Source of the DNA: Methyloversatilis sp.
Lineage (GTDB): Bacteria > Pseudomonadota > Gammaproteobacteria > Burkholderiales > Rhodocyclaceae
Length of the DNA: 58,319 bases
Assembly (NCBI GenBank): GCA_017984755.1
Contig: JAGNYW010000016.1
Location: 1 to 58,319, forward strand
Reading direction: 5' to 3'
Position 1 is the first letter of the stretch. Each line of letters begins with the position of its first letter. Of this stretch, positions 48,053 to 58,319 are shown one piece after another. A program made the translations under genes and the position numbers. Below the pieces are notes generated by a model. It was not told where the DNA came from, made no database searches, and saw only the letters and a program-made list of their open reading frames with translations.

Positions 48053-49432
48053 TCAGCGACGCGGCGGATCAGCCTGCAGTTCGAGATCAAGGCCCACGCC
48101 GGCAACGCTGAAGCCCGACTCGGTCGGCAGCATGACCTCCTCTCCCTGAGCAGCGAGCGCTGCATTGGCGCGCACCAGCCGCTGCACCAGGCTGCTGATC
48201 AACTGGCCGCGGAAGTGCTCGAGGCACTCTTCCGATGCCAGCGCCAGTGCGGAGGGATTCACTTCAAGAAAGGCAATCGGCGACGTGGCAATCACGGTCG
48301 CCGAACGGCGCGCGTGCTTCGAATCGAGGTAACCCATCTCGCCGACCACGTCTCCGGCACCGAGTTCGGCGAGCAGACGCCCACCTATGCTCACCTGCGC
48401 ATGGCCCGAGATGATGATGCCGAACCGGTTGTCGGTGTCGCCCTCGCGCATCATGACGGCGTTCTCCTGGAACTGCCGCCAGCCCGAAAAACGCAGGACT
48501 TCCCACACCTCGATGTCGTCGAATTCGGTGAAGAAGGGCATCTTGCGCAGTATGGAGAAGCGCGTCGTGTCAGGCGGCCGGTAACTGTCGTCGAGAATCT
48601 TGAAGCGCACCGAGGACAGGTCCTTCGCGAACTCGGCCCCATTCTTGTAACGCGAGTACAGATCCTTCTCCAGCGCCTTGCGGATCACCCGATCCATTGC
48701 CTCGGGTACTTCGGGATTCAGCTGCGAAGCAGACGGCGGGTCGGCATTGATGATCTTGTAGATCAATTGCGCAGGATGCTTGGCGCGGAAAGGCAGACGA
48801 CCGGTCAGCAGATGGAACAGCACCACCCCGAGGGAATACAGATCGGTCTTCTGATTCAGCGGGTAGCCCTTAACCTGCTCCGGACTCATGTAGGCCGGCG
48901 AACCCACGCCCATGATGAAGGTCGAGTCCTTGTCGTTTTCCTTGGCGATGTTGAGCGCAAGGCCGAAATCGGTGACCTTGACCAGATCGTTGGCCCCGAT
49001 GAGGATATTTGCCGGCTTGATGTCCCGATGCACCACACCCTGGCGGTAGGCGTAGTCGAGGGCCATGCAGCACTTGAATACGATGCTCACGGCACGTGAC
49101 AGCGGAAGCATCTTGTTGAATTCGCAATAGTGATCGAGCGCCTCACCCTCGATGTATTCCATCACGAGATATGCGCGCCCTTCTTCCACCTGCGCGTCGA
49201 AGATGCGGATGATGTTCGGGTGGTCCAGCTTCGCCGCAATCGCCGCCTCGGTGAGGAACAGCTTGCGCATGCGGCGTGACCATTTACCCTGGTCGCGGTT
49301 CTTGTCGCCGAAATCGACCAGCTTGACTGCCACCAGTTCGTCCAGGTCATCGGACTTGCAGAGGTAGACCGTGGCGGTCGCCCCCTTGCCGATTTCCCGG
49401 ATAACCCTGTATTTGCCGATGCGATCGAGCAT
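48053..49432 (-). CDS. Serine/threonine protein kinase with C-terminal cyclic-nucleotide-binding domain
   Basis: 459 residues from ATG 49432 (MLDRIGKYRVIREIGKG). Hanks-type kinase domain ~8-270: Gly loop GKGATATV, Lys37 (VAVKL), catalytic HRDIKPANIL with Asp137, DFG at 155-157, SPAYMSPEQ activation segment; all catalytic residues present. A cNMP-binding/CRP-like beta-roll follows at ~296-420 with phosphate-cassette-like GEMGYLDSKHARRSATV. No transmembrane segment, so it is cytosolic. The frame extends 110 codons upstream without homology. No ribosome-binding site is evident, leaving the start open. Not in an operon; divergent from grpE. Confidence 0.9.
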   Translation of the reverse strand: MLDRIGKYRVIREIGKGATATVYLCKSDDLDELVAVKLVDFGDKNRDQGKWSRRMRKLFLTEAAIAAKLDHPNIIRIFDAQVEEGRAYLVMEYIEGEALDHYCEFNKMLPLSRAVSIVFKCCMALDYAYRQGVVHRDIKPANILIGANDLVKVTDFGLALNIAKENDKDSTFIMGVGSPAYMSPEQVKGYPLNQKTDLYSLGVVLFHLLTGRLPFRAKHPAQLIYKIINADPPSASQLNPEVPEAMDRVIRKALEKDLYSRYKNGAEFAKDLSSVRFKILDDSYRPPDTTRFSILRKMPFFTEFDDIEVWEVLRFSGWRQFQENAVMMREGDTDNRFGIIISGHAQVSIGGRLLAELGAGDVVGEMGYLDSKHARRSATVIATSPIAFLEVNPSALALASEECLEHFRGQLISSLVQRLVRANAALAAQGEEVMLPTESGFSVAGVGLDLELQADPPRR

Positions 49433-49536
49433 TGATTCTATGGTGGCGCGGACGTCATGAACACCCGCAATGATAGGGCATTGCCCCCGCCCGGACAAAA
49501 GCATCTTCCGGACAAGCCCGGATATATGCCCGTAAT

Positions 49537-49601
49537 CCGTGTCACAAAGTCGACAAGCGTCGGGGCTTGAAATCCGTTGCCAGTGGCCCAAAGTGACACG
49601 G
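49537..49601. repeat. Inverted repeat flanking the grpE heat-shock promoter
   Basis: CCGTGTCAC (49537-49545) and GTGACACGG (49593-49601) are perfect 9-bp arms 47 bp apart, one on each side of the sigma-32-type promoter. The downstream arm would overlap the transcription start. It may be an operator or a looping pair; no known regulator is suggested. Confidence 0.45.
49566..49591 (+). promoter_or_regulatory. Sigma-32-type promoter of grpE
   Basis: CTTGAA (49566-49571), 14-bp spacer, GCCCAA (49586-49591), against the consensus CTTGAA-N13/14-CCCCAT. About 40 bp before the grpE start. Confidence 0.7.
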
Positions 49602-49629
49602 GTCATAAAAAGCAAGAGGAAACAGTTGC

Positions 49630-50160
49630 ATGACCGAGCACACCCAACCCGCCGATGCGGGAGACAGCCCGACTGCCGGATCCGCGGATGAAAACCTGCC
49701 CGCAGACCCGGCGGGCGCGCTTGCAGCCGCTGAACAGAAAGCGGCAGAGCACTACGAATCACTGCTGCGCTCGCGCGCGGAAACCGAAAACATGCGTCGC
49801 CGAGCTGCCGAAGATGTACTCAAGGCAGGCAAGTTCGGGGCGGAGAAGTTCGCCAACGCCATGCTGCCGGTGAAGGACAGCCTCGAAGCCGCCCTGGCCG
49901 CGGAAGCGACGGATATCGCAGCGCTGCGCTCGGGCGTGGAACTGACGCTGCGGCAGCTGCAGCAGGCTTTCAGCAGTGCCAGCATCGAAGAGCTCAATCC
50001 GCTGGGCGAGAAATTCGATCCGCACAGGCATCAGGCCATCAGCCAGATCGAAGCCCCGGGCGAGCCTAATCACGTGGTTCAGGTGCTGCAGAAAGGTTAC
50101 CTGCTGCATGAGCGCGTGCTGCGCCCGGCACTTGTCATCGTTTCGAAGGCGGCTGGCTGA
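49630..50160 (+). CDS. grpE: Nucleotide exchange factor GrpE
   Basis: Releases ADP from DnaK. 176 residues: acidic, disordered N terminus (1-35), long coiled-coil helix (~38-90, [29 protein letters not shown]), then the beta domain with the family end [18 protein letters not shown]. Start ATG 49630 with AGAGGA upstream. First of grpE-dnaK-dnaJ; has its own heat-shock promoter. Confidence 0.97.
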
Positions 50161-53765: not shown

Positions 53766-53779
53766 TTGATCGACATCAA
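53766..53779. promoter_or_regulatory. FNR/Anr/Dnr-type binding site (perfect consensus)
   Basis: TTGAT-CGAC-ATCAA, an exact match to the TTGAT-N4-ATCAA box of the FNR family. In DNA of this composition such a match is expected by chance roughly 0.01 times per window (rough estimate from base frequencies). It lies 170 bp upstream of pqqA. CRP-family activators usually bind about 41.5 bp before the transcription start, which would put the start near 53814, but I see no strong -10 there. It suggests low-oxygen or nitric-oxide-linked control of the pqq-like operon. Confidence 0.65.
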
Positions 53780-53949
53780 ATCTCTGCGTCACACGCGTGG
53801 AAATCCCGAAAAGATCGACCCATCCAGACGAAAAACATGAGCCGGCATTGGTGAAACCGTGGGTGCAGCGCAAGGCGCTTCCGTACGACGATGTGCTCCG
53901 ACTGACCATCCGGCCAGTCGTGCAACCGATACCAAAGAGGAGATTCGTC

Positions 53950-54024
53950 ATGCAGTGGATCGATCCGGCTTACAGCGACATCCGTCTCGGATTTGAAGTG
54001 ACGGCGTACGTCTACGTGCGCTGA
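53950..54024 (+). CDS. pqqA: PQQ precursor peptide PqqA (24 residues)
   Basis: Ribosomal peptide whose Glu and Tyr are cross-linked to become the pyrroloquinoline quinone skeleton. 24 residues, the usual size; contains GFEVTAYVYVR with Glu16 and Tyr20 in the conserved E-x-x-x-Y spacing, and the common DIRLGFEVT lead-in. Start ATG 53950 has GAGGAG seven bases upstream. Pro6-Ala7-Tyr8 matches PAYTD in well-known PqqA. The frame stays open upstream to GTG 53797, but that extension lacks homology and an SD, so I do not use it. First gene of the cluster; pqqD follows after 49 bp. Confidence 0.9.
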   Translation: MQWIDPAYSDIRLGFEVTAYVYVR

Positions 54025-54073
54025 TGAACAGGAGGCGGCGCAAGCCGCCTCTTCCGCTGGCAAGGAGCGTCGG

Positions 54074-54367
54074 ATGGACGATATCGAAGTGACCGCAGGG
54101 ACGGCGCGCTATGCGCTGAACCCGATCTATCTGTTCCGCTGGGAAGCAACACAGGATGCCCACGTGCTGCTCTACCCGGAAGGCATCGTGAAGCTGAACC
54201 GTACCGCCGGTGAAATCATCGAGTTGTGCGATGGCCGGCGCACTGCCTCCGATATGGTGGAAATGATGCAGCAGCGTTATCCGGGCGACGACGGACGCGT
54301 CGCAACTGGGGTTTACAACTCGCTGGAGGTGTTCAGTGCCAAAGGATGGATCCGTCGTCAGGCTTGA
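54074..54367 (+). CDS. pqqD: PqqD, PqqA-binding chaperone (RiPP recognition element)
   Basis: Binds PqqA and presents it to PqqE. 97 residues, typical length and sequence: LNPIYLFRWEATQDAHVLLYPEGIVKLNRTAGEIIELCDGRRTASDMVEMM...GWIRRQA, a winged-helix RRE fold. ATG 54074 is preceded by AAGGAG at good distance. Overlaps pqqE by 32 bp, so the two products are translationally coupled. Confidence 0.94.
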   Translation: MDDIEVTAGTARYALNPIYLFRWEATQDAHVLLYPEGIVKLNRTAGEIIELCDGRRTASDMVEMMQQRYPGDDGRVATGVYNSLEVFSAKGWIRRQA

Positions 54368-55493
54368 TGGGGAATGCAAGCCGCTGTGGCTGGTGCTCGA
54401 GCTGACGTATCGCTGCCCGCTCAAGTGCCCCTGGTGCAGCAACCCGGTGGATTATGCCTGCGGCAACAACGGCGAACTCGGGACAGATGAGTGGAAGCGC
54501 GTTCTGCTCGAGGGTCGCGAACTGGGCGCGCTGCAGTTGGGTTTCACCGGCGGCGAGCCGATGCTGCGCGATGACCTCGAAGAGCTCGTCGCCGAAGCGC
54601 ACCGGCTCGGCTACTACACCAATCTGATCACTTCGGGCATCGGGCTGACCGAAGAGCGCCTGACCGCGCTCAAGGCTGCCGGACTCAACCAGATACAGCT
54701 GTCGCTGCAATCAAGCGATCGCACTCTCACCGACGCGCTGGTCGGCGCGCGCGCCTTCGACCTGAAGATCAAGGTGGCGCACATGATCAAGGCCTTCGGC
54801 TTCCCGATGGTGCTCAATGTGCCGGTGTTCAGGCAGAACATCGACCAGGTCGAGGAAATTCTCGCACTGGCCGAGGAAATCGGCGTCGATTACCTCGAAT
54901 TCGCCAACATCCAGTATTACAACTGGGCCCTGCTCAATCGCGACGAACTGCTGCCCACCCGCACGCAGATCGAAACGGCCGAACGCGCTGTGCGGGCGGC
55001 GCGCGAGCGCATCGGCGATCGCATGACGATCTACTTCGTCATCCCCGATTATTACGAAACGCGCCCGAAAGCCTGCATGAATGGCTGGGGATCGATCCAC
55101 CTGACGATCGCACCGGACGGAGCAGCCATGCCCTGTCAGGAAGCGCGGGCAATCGAAGGCCTGACGTTTCCGACCGTGCGCGAACAGAGTCTCGCCTGGC
55201 TGTGGAACGAATCGCCGACCTTCCGCAAATTCCGCGGCGACGAATGGATGCAGGAACCCTGCCGCTCGTGCAGCGAAAAGGAACAGGATTTCGGCGGATG
55301 CCGCTGTCAGGCCTTCCTGCTCACCGGCGACGCCGGCAACACCGATCCCGCCTGCGCGCGCTCGCCGCATCACCACCTCATCGACGAGGCCGTCAGACGG
55401 GCACATGAACCGGGGCGCATCGTCCATCCCCTGATCATGCGCAATGACCGGAATTCGCACCTGGAGACGGAGACCGATCATGTCCGAACCTGA
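54336..55493 (+). CDS. pqqE: PqqE, radical SAM peptide cross-linking enzyme
   Basis: Forms the C-C bond between Glu and Tyr of PqqA, using SAM and low-potential electrons. 385 residues. Radical SAM cluster ligands Cys27, Cys31, Cys34 (CPLKCPWC); SAM-binding GGEP at ~72-75. SPASM-domain ligands: Cys247, Cys267, Cys309, Cys312, Asp318, Cys322, Cys324, Cys340, matching the known set including the unusual Asp ligand of auxiliary cluster II. So it looks fully functional. Start GTG 54336 has GGAGG six bases upstream. Its 3' end overlaps the next small gene by 14 bp. Confidence 0.95.
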   Translation: MPKDGSVVRLDGECKPLWLVLELTYRCPLKCPWCSNPVDYACGNNGELGTDEWKRVLLEGRELGALQLGFTGGEPMLRDDLEELVAEAHRLGYYTNLITSGIGLTEERLTALKAAGLNQIQLSLQSSDRTLTDALVGARAFDLKIKVAHMIKAFGFPMVLNVPVFRQNIDQVEEILALAEEIGVDYLEFANIQYYNWALLNRDELLPTRTQIETAERAVRAARERIGDRMTIYFVIPDYYETRPKACMNGWGSIHLTIAPDGAAMPCQEARAIEGLTFPTVREQSLAWLWNESPTFRKFRGDEWMQEPCRSCSEKEQDFGGCRCQAFLLTGDAGNTDPACARSPHHHLIDEAVRRAHEPGRIVHPLIMRNDRNSHLETETDHVRT

Positions 55494-55629
55494 CCCGGGA
55501 ACGCGCCCGCTGCAGGCAGCACCCGAACTCGGCACGATCGGCCGCCTGCTCGATTCGTCGCGATCGGCAGTACTGTTCGGCGTCGCCCTGACCGGTCTGC
55601 TCGCGTGGCTGCTGCACCTGCGCGCCTGA
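55480..55629 (+). CDS. 49-residue single-pass membrane peptide
   Basis: Not recognised. Hydrophilic N terminus rich in Pro, then LLDSSRSA and one transmembrane helix (~28-47, SAVLFGVALTGLLAWLLHL). Real-gene support: ATG 55480 has GGAG seven bases upstream, it overlaps the pqqE end by 14 bp, and the following gene starts 13 bp after its stop with its own GGAGG. Small subunits of this kind accompany cytochrome or quinone-reactive membrane proteins; a partnership with the next gene is inference. Confidence 0.7.
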   Translation: MSEPDPGTRPLQAAPELGTIGRLLDSSRSAVLFGVALTGLLAWLLHLRA

Positions 55630-55642
55630 ACGGAGGTCACCG

Positions 55643-56149
55643 ATGGACACCCTGCTCGTCGAGACTTTCGCCCGCTGGCTGCATTTCGCCGGTGCGCTGA
55701 TCTGGATCGGCCACAACTACGCAACTGCCATCACCCGCGCGCGATACGTGCCGCTGGTTGCCGATGACCTGAGTGACCCGGACAGCCCACGCCAGCGTGC
55801 CATCATGCAGCGCGAGCACGGCACGTTCCGCCATGCCTCGCTGCTGACGCTGGCGAGCGGTCTGGTCATACTGTGGGAACGCGGCTGGCTTGCCGATGCA
55901 CTGACGCTTCAGGGTCAACTGGCACCGCTGGGCGTGGGCATCTGGATCGCCTGCATCATGGTGTGCAACCTGTGGTTCGTACTCTGGCCACACCAGAAGC
56001 GCGTGCTCGGCTTCATACCGGCACCGCTGGATGAGCGGCTACGTGCCTCGCGCGTGACCTTCCTGTCGGCACGCGTGAATACCCTGCTGTCGGTGCCGGT
56101 GCTGTTCTTCATGGGCGTCGGTGCGCACGGCAGCGCCTTGTTCGGATGA
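55643..56149 (+). CDS. Four-helix membrane protein resembling the PuuD/urate-oxidase N-terminal membrane domain
   Basis: 168 residues, four predicted helices (~8-30, 66-80, 95-115, 145-163). The stretches RWLHFAGALIWIGHNY and MVCNLWFVLWPHQKRVLG are like the membrane domain of PuuD-type urate hydroxylases (Urate_ox_N family). Only about one domain is present and there is no cytochrome c domain. His14, His24, His59, His64, His117 and His162 are candidate haem or metal ligands. ATG 55643 has GGAGG six bases upstream. It could tie the soluble enzymes of this operon to the respiratory chain; that is inference. Assignment to the family is moderate. Confidence 0.7.
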   Translation: MDTLLVETFARWLHFAGALIWIGHNYATAITRARYVPLVADDLSDPDSPRQRAIMQREHGTFRHASLLTLASGLVILWERGWLADALTLQGQLAPLGVGIWIACIMVCNLWFVLWPHQKRVLGFIPAPLDERLRASRVTFLSARVNTLLSVPVLFFMGVGAHGSALFG

Positions 56150-56165
56150 CGGACCCGGCTGCGCG

Positions 56166-57272
56166 ATGTCCACGCCCATGACGGCCGGTGCAGGGCATGC
56201 CACCCAGCCTGCGCCGGTCGACCCGCCGTTCGGATTCTCGGCTTCGGCCGGCCCTCAGCCTGCCGAAGTGAGCGCACGCATCGCCGACGCATGCCGCCGG
56301 CGGGATCGCGGAATTCTGGCCCTGCCCTTCACATCGCCCGAATACCACGATATCCAGCGCAGGGTCGATGAACTGCTGCGACAGATGCTCGCCGTGCCGC
56401 CGCACTTCGACATCCTGTACATGGCAGGTGGTGCGAGTGCGCAATTCGCGCTGGTCCCCCTCAACCTGCTCGGGCAGCACGGACGGGCGCTGTATGTCGA
56501 CAGCGGTCACTGGGCACAGCGGGCCATCGGCGAAGCACGGCGTTACGGCGACATCGCCGTCACCAGCGCCGACGCGTCGGTCATCGACAACCCGGCGCCA
56601 CAAGCAGCTCTCTACTGTCACTACACCAGCAATGAAACCGCGAACGGCCTGCAGTTCCGGCGGCTGCCGGCGACGCCGCTGCCGCTGGTCGCCGACATGA
56701 CATCGGACCTGCTCACTGCATCGCCCGACTGGTCGCGCCATGGCCTCGTATACGCGGGTACACAGAAGACGCTGGGCGTACCCGGCTTGTGTATCGTCAT
56801 CGTACGGCGCGATCTGATCGCCGCGCCGCATCCGCTGACGCCGCGCGTGATGAACTATGCCGCACTTTCATCGGCCGCATCACGGCTGTGCACGCCACCC
56901 GTATTTGCCATGTACGCAGCGCTCTGCATGCTCGAATGGATCATGGGCGAGGGCGGCGTCGCAACCATGCAGACCCGCCTGACCGAGCGTGCGCAGGCGG
57001 TGTATCGATGCATCGACGACACGCCCGCGCTCTACCGCTGCGCAACGGACAGTGCATGGCGCTCTCTCGTGAACCCGTGTTTCGATCTGCCGGATGAAGC
57101 CACCCGCCAGTGCTTCCTCGAAGCCGCACAGACGAGCGGCCTGCGCGACCTGGCAGGCCATCCGGACGTGGGCGGCGTACGCGTGAGCCTGTACAACGGA
57201 CTGTCTGATCAGGCTGTCTGCGCATTGACCGGGTTCATGCGCGCTTTCGCGCAAGGCCGGCGGGCGCACTGA
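56166..57272 (+). CDS. SerC-like PLP aminotransferase, divergent substrate pocket
   Basis: 368 residues, alignable along its whole length with phosphoserine aminotransferase: GFSASAGPQPAEV, GGASAQFALVPLNLL, LYVDSGHWAQRAIGEARRYG, HYTSNETANGLQF, LVADMTSDLL, VYAGTQKTLGVPGL with PLP Lys201, and VRVSLYNGL with Arg339 for the alpha-carboxylate. The phosphate-binding positions of E. coli SerC are changed: the SHR loop becomes PFTSP (residues 54-58), Arg77 is Ser91, and HR (328-329) becomes His332-Pro333. So the substrate is probably not a phospho-amino acid. Start ATG 56166 is a choice (GTG 56121 overlaps the previous gene; ATG 56178 also possible). The gap to the next gene is 2 bp. Confidence 0.85.
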   Translation: MSTPMTAGAGHATQPAPVDPPFGFSASAGPQPAEVSARIADACRRRDRGILALPFTSPEYHDIQRRVDELLRQMLAVPPHFDILYMAGGASAQFALVPLNLLGQHGRALYVDSGHWAQRAIGEARRYGDIAVTSADASVIDNPAPQAALYCHYTSNETANGLQFRRLPATPLPLVADMTSDLLTASPDWSRHGLVYAGTQKTLGVPGLCIVIVRRDLIAAPHPLTPRVMNYAALSSAASRLCTPPVFAMYAALCMLEWIMGEGGVATMQTRLTERAQAVYRCIDDTPALYRCATDSAWRSLVNPCFDLPDEATRQCFLEAAQTSGLRDLAGHPDVGGVRVSLYNGLSDQAVCALTGFMRAFAQGRRAH

Positions 57273-57274
57273 AC

Positions 57275-58078
57275 ATGCCGCTGTCTGCACTGGCACTGCG
57301 CACGCGCTGGTCGGTCGCCCGCATGCATCAGGGGCGGCAGCAACCGTTCATGCCGGCCGGTCTCACTACCCCGGTTCAGGTCATGGGACTGGACTTTCCT
57401 TCACCACTGGTGCTGGCGGCAGGGTTCGACCGCCACGGAAGACTGTTCGATGCGGCCGCCCGGCTCGGTCTGGGCGCCATCGAAGCGGGCAGCATGAACT
57501 GCGCGCCCGACCGGCCGGTGCCTCCGCTGCTGTGGCCCAGGCACAGCGCAGTACGACGCGGCCTGAGTCTGGGCAAGCCACCCGGCATGACCTGGGCGCA
57601 GGCGCCTGCGGCCTTTTTGCATGCGCTGGTGAATTGGCACCGCTGCGCGGACTATGTCACGCTGAATCCGGGCCCCGACTGTCCGTCACCCGACGATCTG
57701 GCGCGGGTGATGACGGTGCTGATGGACGCACGCATGAACCTGCCACGTCGATCGCCATTGCCTTTGGTCGCCAAACTGCCGGCGCGCTGGATCGGCCGCA
57801 CGACACGCCGATCGACCCTGCATCGCTTCGCCGACACCGGCTGCGACGGGCTGCTGCTGTCGATGGAAGGTCTGACCGAACCGCCCGGCGAAGCGCTCGC
57901 GGATATCGCCGGCATCGCCGGACCCGGCATCACGCTGATCAGCGTGGGTGGCATCTCGACGCTCCATGACGTGCGCCGACGACTGCTGGCCGGCATGCAT
58001 CTGGTTCAGGTGCATCGAGCCTTCGCACGCACCCTGCCGCAACGGGACGCCATGCGCGTGCGCAGTCAGCGCGCGTGA
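57275..58078 (+). CDS. Short PyrD-like flavoprotein (dihydroorotate dehydrogenase family, atypical)
   Basis: 267 residues; related to class 2 dihydroorotate dehydrogenases: VQVMGLDFPSPLVLAAGFDRHG, AARLGLGAIEAGS, VAKLPA (Lys167) and the FMN-phosphate elements ISVGGIS and AGMHLVQVHRAF. It is ~70 residues shorter than E. coli PyrD. The NRMGFNN segment is missing, the catalytic-Ser loop (NISSPNT in E. coli) reads NPGPDCP, and AGLDK is AGFDR. It therefore probably does not make orotate. ATG 57275 is 2 bp after the SerC-like stop. Last gene of the pqq-like string. Confidence 0.82.
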   Translation: MPLSALALRTRWSVARMHQGRQQPFMPAGLTTPVQVMGLDFPSPLVLAAGFDRHGRLFDAAARLGLGAIEAGSMNCAPDRPVPPLLWPRHSAVRRGLSLGKPPGMTWAQAPAAFLHALVNWHRCADYVTLNPGPDCPSPDDLARVMTVLMDARMNLPRRSPLPLVAKLPARWIGRTTRRSTLHRFADTGCDGLLLSMEGLTEPPGEALADIAGIAGPGITLISVGGISTLHDVRRRLLAGMHLVQVHRAFARTLPQRDAMRVRSQRA

Positions 58079-58124
58079 TTCCGGCAGTTTGCAGGCCGCC
58101 GGATGCTGGATTCACATTTGCATT

Positions 58125-58319
58125 TCATTCCGTCAGGCCGTCTTGAACCAGCCCATCCGTTGCCGTCATTGCGGCTGCCAGTTCGAGCGCAAGCGCTTCG
58201 GCCTGCCGATACACCCGCTGCGCCTGCCCGGCATCGAAATCGTCGTGCTGACGTTTCTTCACACCGTGTTCATGCAGCAACAGATGACGGTCCGGTTCAA
58301 GGCCACGCTGAGCGAGGCA
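58125..58319 (-). CDS. Possible 3' end of an unknown gene running in from the right edge
   Basis: Open frame on the minus strand, 64 codons ending at TGA 58127-58125, with a helix-like end (QAQRVYRQAEALALELAAAM). No family recognised. It is convergent with the pqq-like operon. Against it: the plus strand is also open from TTG 58143 and has the higher third-position GC (about 85% versus 62%), so strand choice is uncertain. Confidence 0.35.
   Translation of the reverse strand, partial: CLAQRGLEPDRHLLLHEHGVKKRQHDDFDAGQAQRVYRQAEALALELAAAMTATDGLVQDGLTE

Follow-up and report, generated by a model that had tools for sequence, protein, structure and literature searches.

Can a pqq operon that carries neither pqqB nor pqqC still lead to pyrroloquinoline quinone (PQQ), and if so, by what chemistry? 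The question is raised by the last part of a 58,319-base stretch of Methyloversatilis sp. DNA, called here the window, which is contig C19 of the 3.27-Mb draft genome G000 (96 contigs, 93.8% complete). Here pqqA, pqqD and pqqE are followed on the plus strand by genes for a small membrane peptide, a PuuD-like membrane protein, a SerC-like pyridoxal phosphate (PLP) enzyme and a PyrD-like flavoprotein (53950–58078; the string is referred to below as the module). Sequence comparisons lead us to the view, to which we give a probability of roughly 0.7, that the puuD-serC-pyrD set, with the peptide, replaces PqqB and PqqC. That PQQ is made here by a complete pathway independent of oxygen, with a heme-type membrane protein and its peptide, a PLP enzyme and an FMN enzyme replacing both the PqqB and the PqqC steps oxygen-free, appears less certain, at a little better than even odds. 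The operon would then be a second PQQ operon, meant for low or no oxygen. Its features are as follows.

53766–53779, plus strand: perfect FNR/DNR box (TTGATcgacATCAA), 184 bp upstream of the pqqA start
53950–54024, plus strand: pqqA, 24-residue precursor peptide with C-terminus GFEVTAYVYVR (E-x3-Y); TIGR02107, 37.5 bits, cut-off 20
54074–54367, plus strand: pqqD, peptide chaperone of 97 residues; TIGR03859, 82.5 bits, cut-off 46
54336–55493, plus strand: pqqE, radical S-adenosylmethionine (SAM)/SPASM cross-linking enzyme of 385 residues, GTG start; TIGR02109, 505.2 bits, cut-off 381.35
55480–55629, plus strand: small single-span membrane peptide of 49 residues, core motif D(S/T)...G..LT
55643–56149, plus strand: PuuD-like four-helix membrane protein of 168 residues; PF06181, 36.3 bits, cut-off 26.9
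56121–57272, plus strand: SerC-like PLP enzyme, in-frame starts GTG 56121, ATG 56166 and ATG 56178; NF003764, 304.9 bits, cut-off 253
57275–58078, plus strand: PyrD-like flavoprotein of 267 residues; PF01180, 39.5 bits, cut-off 27

The initial annotation had taken pqqA, pqqD, pqqE and the four further genes to be intact and tightly packed, and both points hold. All frames are open, PqqA, PqqD and PqqE score above their curated family cut-offs, and the gaps and overlaps range from 2 to 49 bp (a gap of 49 bp between pqqA and pqqD, overlaps of 32 bp for pqqD/pqqE and 14 bp for pqqE and the peptide gene, gaps of 13 bp between the peptide gene and puuD and 2 bp between serC and pyrD). The E-x3-Y core of PqqA is conserved across six aligned modules. 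Profile searches found no pqqB or pqqC among the genes of 53766–58319.

The absence of pqqB and pqqC claimed from the window thus stands for the operon and fails for the genome. The search for pqqB, pqqC and a second pqqA and pqqE that had been proposed as a check recovered all of them on contig C31, in a canonical pqqA-B-C-D-E operon:

C31 149691–149753, minus strand: canonical pqqA
C31 148619–149527, minus strand: canonical pqqB
C31 147897–148595, minus strand: canonical pqqC
C31 147608–147790, minus strand: canonical pqqD
C31 146518–147558, minus strand: canonical pqqE

The window operon is therefore a second pqq set, with pqqB and pqqC missing from this operon only. It has in common with canonical pqqABCDE a PqqA with E-x3-Y, PqqD and PqqE, and differs from it in the three other enzymes and the membrane peptide that stand in place of pqqB and pqqC, as well as in its PqqE, which belongs to a separate group. 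The window PqqE is 57% identical to the canonical PqqE of the same genome, and a midpoint-rooted tree of 44 PqqE proteins (28 encoded in module loci, the other 16 canonical and from those genomes) separates the two kinds at a single branch with support 100/99, the window protein being on the module side; both G083 rows are long branches in this tree. Two further pqqA copies lie in G000 at C50:48883–48945 and C85:54308–54370, off both contigs that bear pqq operons.

The string is not confined to this genome. By tblastn it was matched in a Methyloversatilis record (L018), a Thauera metagenome-assembled genome (MAG; L019), Methylobacillus sp. MM3 (L020), Hyphomicrobium zavarzinii (L021) and a Hyphomicrobium MAG (L023), and partially in G027 (L011), where it is cut by the stretch examined. 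It is also present on plasmids of Acidibrevibacterium fodinaquatile (L028), whose PyrD-like gene is annotated as hypothetical yet is detected by the profile, and of Methylovirgula sp. HY1 (L029). The string recurs, then, in Alpha- and Betaproteobacteria. Among 249 genomes of the window's family, G000 included, 27 carry a PuuD-like gene at module level; pqqE and serC lie beside puuD in all 25 further family loci that were checked, and likewise in G000 and G009, so that the packing of pqqE, puuD and serC exceeds chance. Neither pqqE nor serC was found beside puuD in three low scorers of the family sample (L086–L088). By profile, 28 loci hold the PuuD-like and the SerC-like gene without exception and the PyrD-like gene in 27 cases, the remaining locus (G527) being cut at a contig end. 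In an even draw of 398 genomes across the phylum there were 86 PuuD-like matches, of which G000 and G083 alone reached module level (at least 241 bits), and the module is therefore rare overall; the other 84 score at most 134 bits and were not inspected gene by gene. The initial annotation had regarded pqqB and pqqC in the same genome, together with a string not conserved among relatives, as telling against its proposal. The two genes are there, and the survey of module neighbourhoods shows the string to be conserved, in the family and in other classes. Two neighbours were recorded on the plasmids: an M48 metalloprotease gene after the PyrD-like gene of Acidibrevibacterium (L028:9423–10601), a candidate for peptide cutting, and an annotated CbpA/CbpB radical-SAM peptide system upstream of the Methylovirgula module (L029:6980–8559).

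One line of evidence comes from genomes that have the module and appear to lack the classical finishing enzymes. In the family sample pqqC is present in 23 of the 27 module genomes, and pqqC and pqqB were not found in the other four (G501, G527, G530 and G544); pqqC was counted in 71 of 73 matching genomes, namely 69 over the cut-off and two with partial genes (G513, G635), with the weak matches of G500 and G546 (35–39 bits) excluded. All four encode PQQ dehydrogenases of the TIGR03075 family, with E below 1e-227 in G527, G530 and G544, to be compared with 28 of the 174 family genomes that have neither pqqC nor the module. The hypergeometric chance of this is about 9e-4 for four of four and about 5e-3 for three of three, by a hand calculation that ignores kinship. 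G501 was dropped as a clean case, being 85% complete and having no pqqA over the cut-off. The other three, which belong to three genera and are 99% (G527), 100% (G530) and 99% (G544) complete, retain pqqA, pqqD, pqqE, puuD and serC; the PyrD-like gene is present in G530 and G544, and the G527 contig stops after serC. In G544, an assembly of 10 contigs, the module is complete and a PQQ dehydrogenase gene lies at a distance of 7.7 kb; in six of its congeners (G021, G497, G577, G628, G647, G662) no module, pqqC or PQQ dehydrogenase was found. In G530 and G527 pqqA-pqqD is separate from pqqE-puuD-serC, with no pqqB or pqqC in the sequence beside it; G478, of the same genus as G530, has pqqB-C-A-D together. 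G530 had the look of an assembly gap until its pqqA-pqqD pair was found on contig C15, with no pqqB or pqqC within the surrounding 14 kb. Six module genomes (G083, G478, G530, G544, G565, G566) have a PQQ dehydrogenase gene at less than 10 kb from puuD, a number that gives no rate, several stretches having been chosen to include the dehydrogenase. If the pathway is indeed oxygen-independent and complete, the module would be the only PQQ route in some genomes.

A second line of evidence comes from genomes in which one precursor appears to serve both finishing sets. A search of 28 module genomes gave just one pqqE (E 1e-80 or better) in 12 of them, and eight of those 12 (G027, G478, G487, G514, G560, G565, G617, G622) also carry pqqB and pqqC, with one pqqA scoring above the cut-off. 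Two of the eight, G478 and G560, consist of a single contig each, and G487 and G622 have a rated completeness of 100%; in the remaining four, at 79–90%, a second copy could escape notice. The lone pqqE of seven of these hybrids belongs to the module group of the tree, and that of G617, which is outside the tree, adjoins puuD. Seven of the eight, all but G617, were examined for the PyrD-like gene, and all seven have it. In G514 all genes of the pqqBC set and the module form one cluster, and G470 has the order pqqB-C-A-D-E-puuD-serC-pyrD, with a second pqqA/D/E kept elsewhere. In eight genomes, then, the pqqBC and puuD-serC sets share one precursor.

These genomes bear directly on the proposal, also made in the initial annotation, that PqqA is turned by the operon into another redox cofactor or a ribosomally synthesized and post-translationally modified peptide, the same Glu-Tyr cross-link being led by PLP and flavin chemistry to another product. 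By family none of the PuuD-like, SerC-like and PyrD-like proteins is a PQQ enzyme, many modules have their own pqqA, and most module genomes have pqqC as well, all of which would be in keeping with a separate product. If that were so, however, the eight hybrids would have to route one precursor to two products, and because they hold only one pqqA and one pqqE for both sets we disfavour the proposal; the ordinary PQQ dehydrogenases of the module genomes without detected pqqB and pqqC, and the classical E-x3-Y core retained by the module PqqA, point the same way. We consider it unlikely. The co-occurrence with pqqC and the joint layouts of G470 and G514 could be read as signs that the three genes are accessory, serving to repair, salvage or detoxify PQQ intermediates or to aid synthesis when oxygen is scarce, and replacing neither PqqB nor PqqC. 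Such a role would leave G527, G530 and G544 with pqqA/D/E and PQQ dehydrogenases kept and no detected pqqB or pqqC, and it seems to us about as unlikely as a different product.

The proteins themselves have departed from the enzymes whose names they bear. The SerC-like protein reaches 281 bits against TIGR01364, below the cut-off of 443.6, and has SerC (4xk1, E 1e-67) as its best match in the PDB, so the SerC fold is kept. The Ser-His-Arg found in all nine housekeeping-type SerC rows taken from relatives (the L011 row having been moved to the module set) is replaced by Pro-Phe with no Arg in 28 of 28 module proteins, the window protein having P50-F51-T52 at this site (numbered from ATG 56178). 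At ungapped alignment positions the PLP lysine K197, the adjacent Gln, H328 and R335 are retained throughout (Gln-Lys in all 26 ungapped sequences of 28). In SerC it is the His-Arg pair that holds the phosphate group of phosphoserine, and because the Ser-His-Arg motif is lost, the substrate of the SerC-like enzyme is probably not phosphoserine. The uniformity of this change bears on one more explanation, namely a decaying pqqADE duplicate that happens to lie beside unrelated urate, serine and pyrimidine genes. Public annotation does name three unrelated pathways here; yet the genes are open, their order is conserved across classes, one specific SerC-like change is common to all 28 proteins, and another SerC homologue is found elsewhere in G000 (contig C90), which together make decay highly improbable.

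The PyrD-like protein scores at most 62.9 bits against the NCBIfam equivalogs of quinone-type PyrD, the cut-offs of which are 200 or more, and its model (predicted local distance difference test score, pLDDT, 78.8, with the N-terminal 27 residues poor) has the dihydroorotate dehydrogenase (DHODH) fold, with a Foldseek E of 1.6e-12 and probability 1.00 to 7t5k_A. D52, N131 and K167 are present in 27 of 27 sequences and the Gly-rich end in 25–26. The catalytic base of DHODH is Ser in class 2 or Cys in class 1 and follows a conserved Asn; in the corresponding stretch of the 27 PyrD-like sequences there is no conserved Ser or Cys.

The PuuD-like protein aligns only to profile positions 150–243 of the 295 of PF06181 and has no other Pfam domain. 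PuuD, as described in PMC4562309, is a membrane urate oxidase composed of an eight-helix domain and a cytochrome c domain, the electrons from urate being thought to pass to cytochrome c. The window protein is distantly similar to part of that membrane domain and, with 168 residues and a model of four long helices (pLDDT 84.8), is without the cytochrome c domain. Its His 14, 24, 59 and 162 are invariant in 28 of 28 sequences and would fit heme b. No Foldseek match was obtained at E 0.001 and no sequence match in the PDB; the best rows of a second aligner were generic four-helix bundles, including designed diheme proteins, cytochrome b561 and b6f, and were uninformative. The 49-residue peptide matched no family. 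Its motif was written after the sequences had been seen. Of 28 loci, 24 have it in the 420 bp that precede puuD, compared with 24 of 1680 random windows; it was not found in H. zavarzinii, the Hyphomicrobium MAG, Methylovirgula or G485. We met no mention of such a peptide in the portions of the open-licence PubMed Central literature consulted.

Possible links of the module to oxygen lie in the sites upstream of it and in its neighbours. In the 350 bp upstream of 17 modules with their own pqqA, a perfect TTGATNNNNATCAA, which we take to be the FNR/DNR consensus, occurs in six, the window included, and a site with one mismatch in one more; the background is 0.0057 perfect sites per 350 bp with the module sites included, and two of the six come from one genus. 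Three canonical pqq promoters have no such box with up to one mismatch. Five of 27 loci contain Crp/Fnr-type genes, which in L021 and L029 immediately precede pqqA. In three of the 27 (L020, L021, L023) ubiU lies within about 4 kb of the module, accompanied by ubiV, as judged by family, in L020 and L021, by a second U32 protein in L023, and by ubiT in L021 and L023. The ubiT/ubiU/ubiV genes resemble the module in concept, as a second, anaerobic set for the oxygen-using steps of a quinone cofactor, although the cofactor and chemistry differ and no sequence relation was seen. In two of the 27 loci there is nosZ, in L018 as a frame about 30 bases behind pyrD whose start codon is unsettled and in L020 at 4.5 kb from pqqA. 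A cytochrome d1 match of at least 466 bits, taken to indicate nirS, was found in all of the 27 family module genomes but two (G000 and G009), and in one of 11 further members of the window's genus. A correlation with nosZ (24 of 27 module genomes and 125 of 222 others, p 7.5e-4 with kinship ignored) was rejected as support, since it vanishes among PQQ makers; nosZ was counted at a best match of E 1e-50 or better, 31 of 180 matching genomes being weaker and scored as without. Rfam gave nothing over threshold in six module loci and two sub-threshold small-RNA matches near the window pqqA. For Methylophaga nitratireducenticrescens, PMC12530212 lists a cyclic di-GMP riboswitch ahead of pqqA.

Some neighbours in and around the window may be mentioned here. 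The genes before the operon were read by eye as grpE, dnaK and dnaJ, and next to grpE, at 48053–49762 on the minus strand, a long open frame was read in the same way as a Ser/Thr protein kinase with a cyclic-nucleotide-binding domain. Behind the operon, at 58125–58319 on the minus strand and running off the contig end, lies the C-terminal part of a DGC-domain protein (a weak match of 21.5 bits, cut-off 27), relatives of which adjoin nosZ in L020 and are also found on the L018 module stretch.

A number of observations weigh against an oxygen-free route. The FNR box is absent from 10 of the 17 modules with their own pqqA, and none with up to one mismatch was found in nine hybrid pqqE or 12 hybrid pqqA/pqqB promoters. 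Among PQQ makers nosZ is present in 24 of 27 genomes with the module and 38 of 48 without it (p = 0.35); in G000 itself no nosZ was found (at 93.8% completeness) and the best cytochrome d1 match, 345 bits, is below the nirS level, its congener G009 having none. The three genomes without detected pqqB and pqqC are all drafts, of 10, 30 and 320 contigs. In G527 pqqA-pqqD is at a contig end, the contig stopping soon after pqqD, and in G530 a TonB-dependent receptor directly follows pqqA-pqqD (L149:5791–7971, on C15), which could be a PQQ importer, so that PQQ uptake is an alternative there. In H. denitrificans, transcription of Hden_0551–0553 fell in two regulator mutants that had been grown with air and with no oxygen shift (PMC12423496). 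No laboratory or biochemical test of the module was found among open-licence PubMed Central papers.

If the set does replace PqqB and PqqC, its product and chemistry being inferred, the following course may be suggested. PqqD and PqqE, judging from their family membership, would join Glu to Tyr in the PqqA encoded by this operon, in the classical way, and the PuuD-like protein with the peptide, the SerC-like enzyme and the PyrD-like enzyme would stand in for PqqB and PqqC, with the respiratory chain and not O2 as the electron acceptor. By analogy with PuuD, the PqqB step may fall to the PuuD-like protein and the peptide, which would oxidise the ring derived from tyrosine and so allow water to add. 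The PqqC step, dehydrogenation of the carboxylated N-heterocycle, may be carried out by the flavin of the PyrD-like protein, a task to which a PyrD relative would be suited because dihydroorotate is itself a carboxylated, partly reduced N-heterocycle. The SerC-like PLP enzyme may handle an amino group in ring closure. Each of these assignments is tentative, more doubtful than probable, and that the quinone oxygen is drawn from water, with electrons going to the respiratory chain, is a guess.

The initial annotation knew of no described system with this gene set, and in this it was mistaken. Li, Schmitte, Torkel and Dahl (Mol Microbiol 2025, PMC12423496) reported pqqAED-puuD-serC-pyrD clusters beside canonical operons in Hyphomicrobium denitrificans (Hden_0548–0553), H. 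nitrativorans, Halomonas sulfidovorans, Stutzerimonas stutzeri, Methylophaga nitratireducenticrescens and Azoarcus sp. DN11, and put forward the speculation that the final steps of PQQ synthesis, performed without oxygen, are encoded there. The gene string, the canonical operon elsewhere in the genome and the oxygen-independent hypothesis are thus the same; the window copy comes from a Methyloversatilis relative outside their list, and our own comparison was with H. zavarzinii (L021) and not with H. denitrificans itself. The low-oxygen finish that had been proposed from the window alone is supported by comparative genomics and was already speculated upon in print. New with respect to that work are the membrane peptide, the FNR boxes, the hybrids with a shared precursor, the genomes without detected pqqB and pqqC and the change in the SerC active site. 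In one Methylophilaceae genome, a 2014 paper notes a genomic island that includes an additional, divergent pqqDE along with a pqqA (PMC4109929).

PQQ synthesis is held to require molecular oxygen, and an oxygen-free finish, if true, would change that. The issue arises in a 2024 study of methanotrophs grown on methanol with nitrous oxide, where PQQ methanol dehydrogenases are considered to be of limited use in strict anoxia since PQQ synthesis needs oxygen (PMC11102522). The genomes that have the module and no detected pqqB or pqqC make the question directly testable. Should the pathway prove real, it would bring to light new means of hydroxylating and aromatising a ring that stems from a peptide, and bacteria that possess it could use PQQ enzymes without air, which would help to explain methanol-driven denitrification with quinoproteins.

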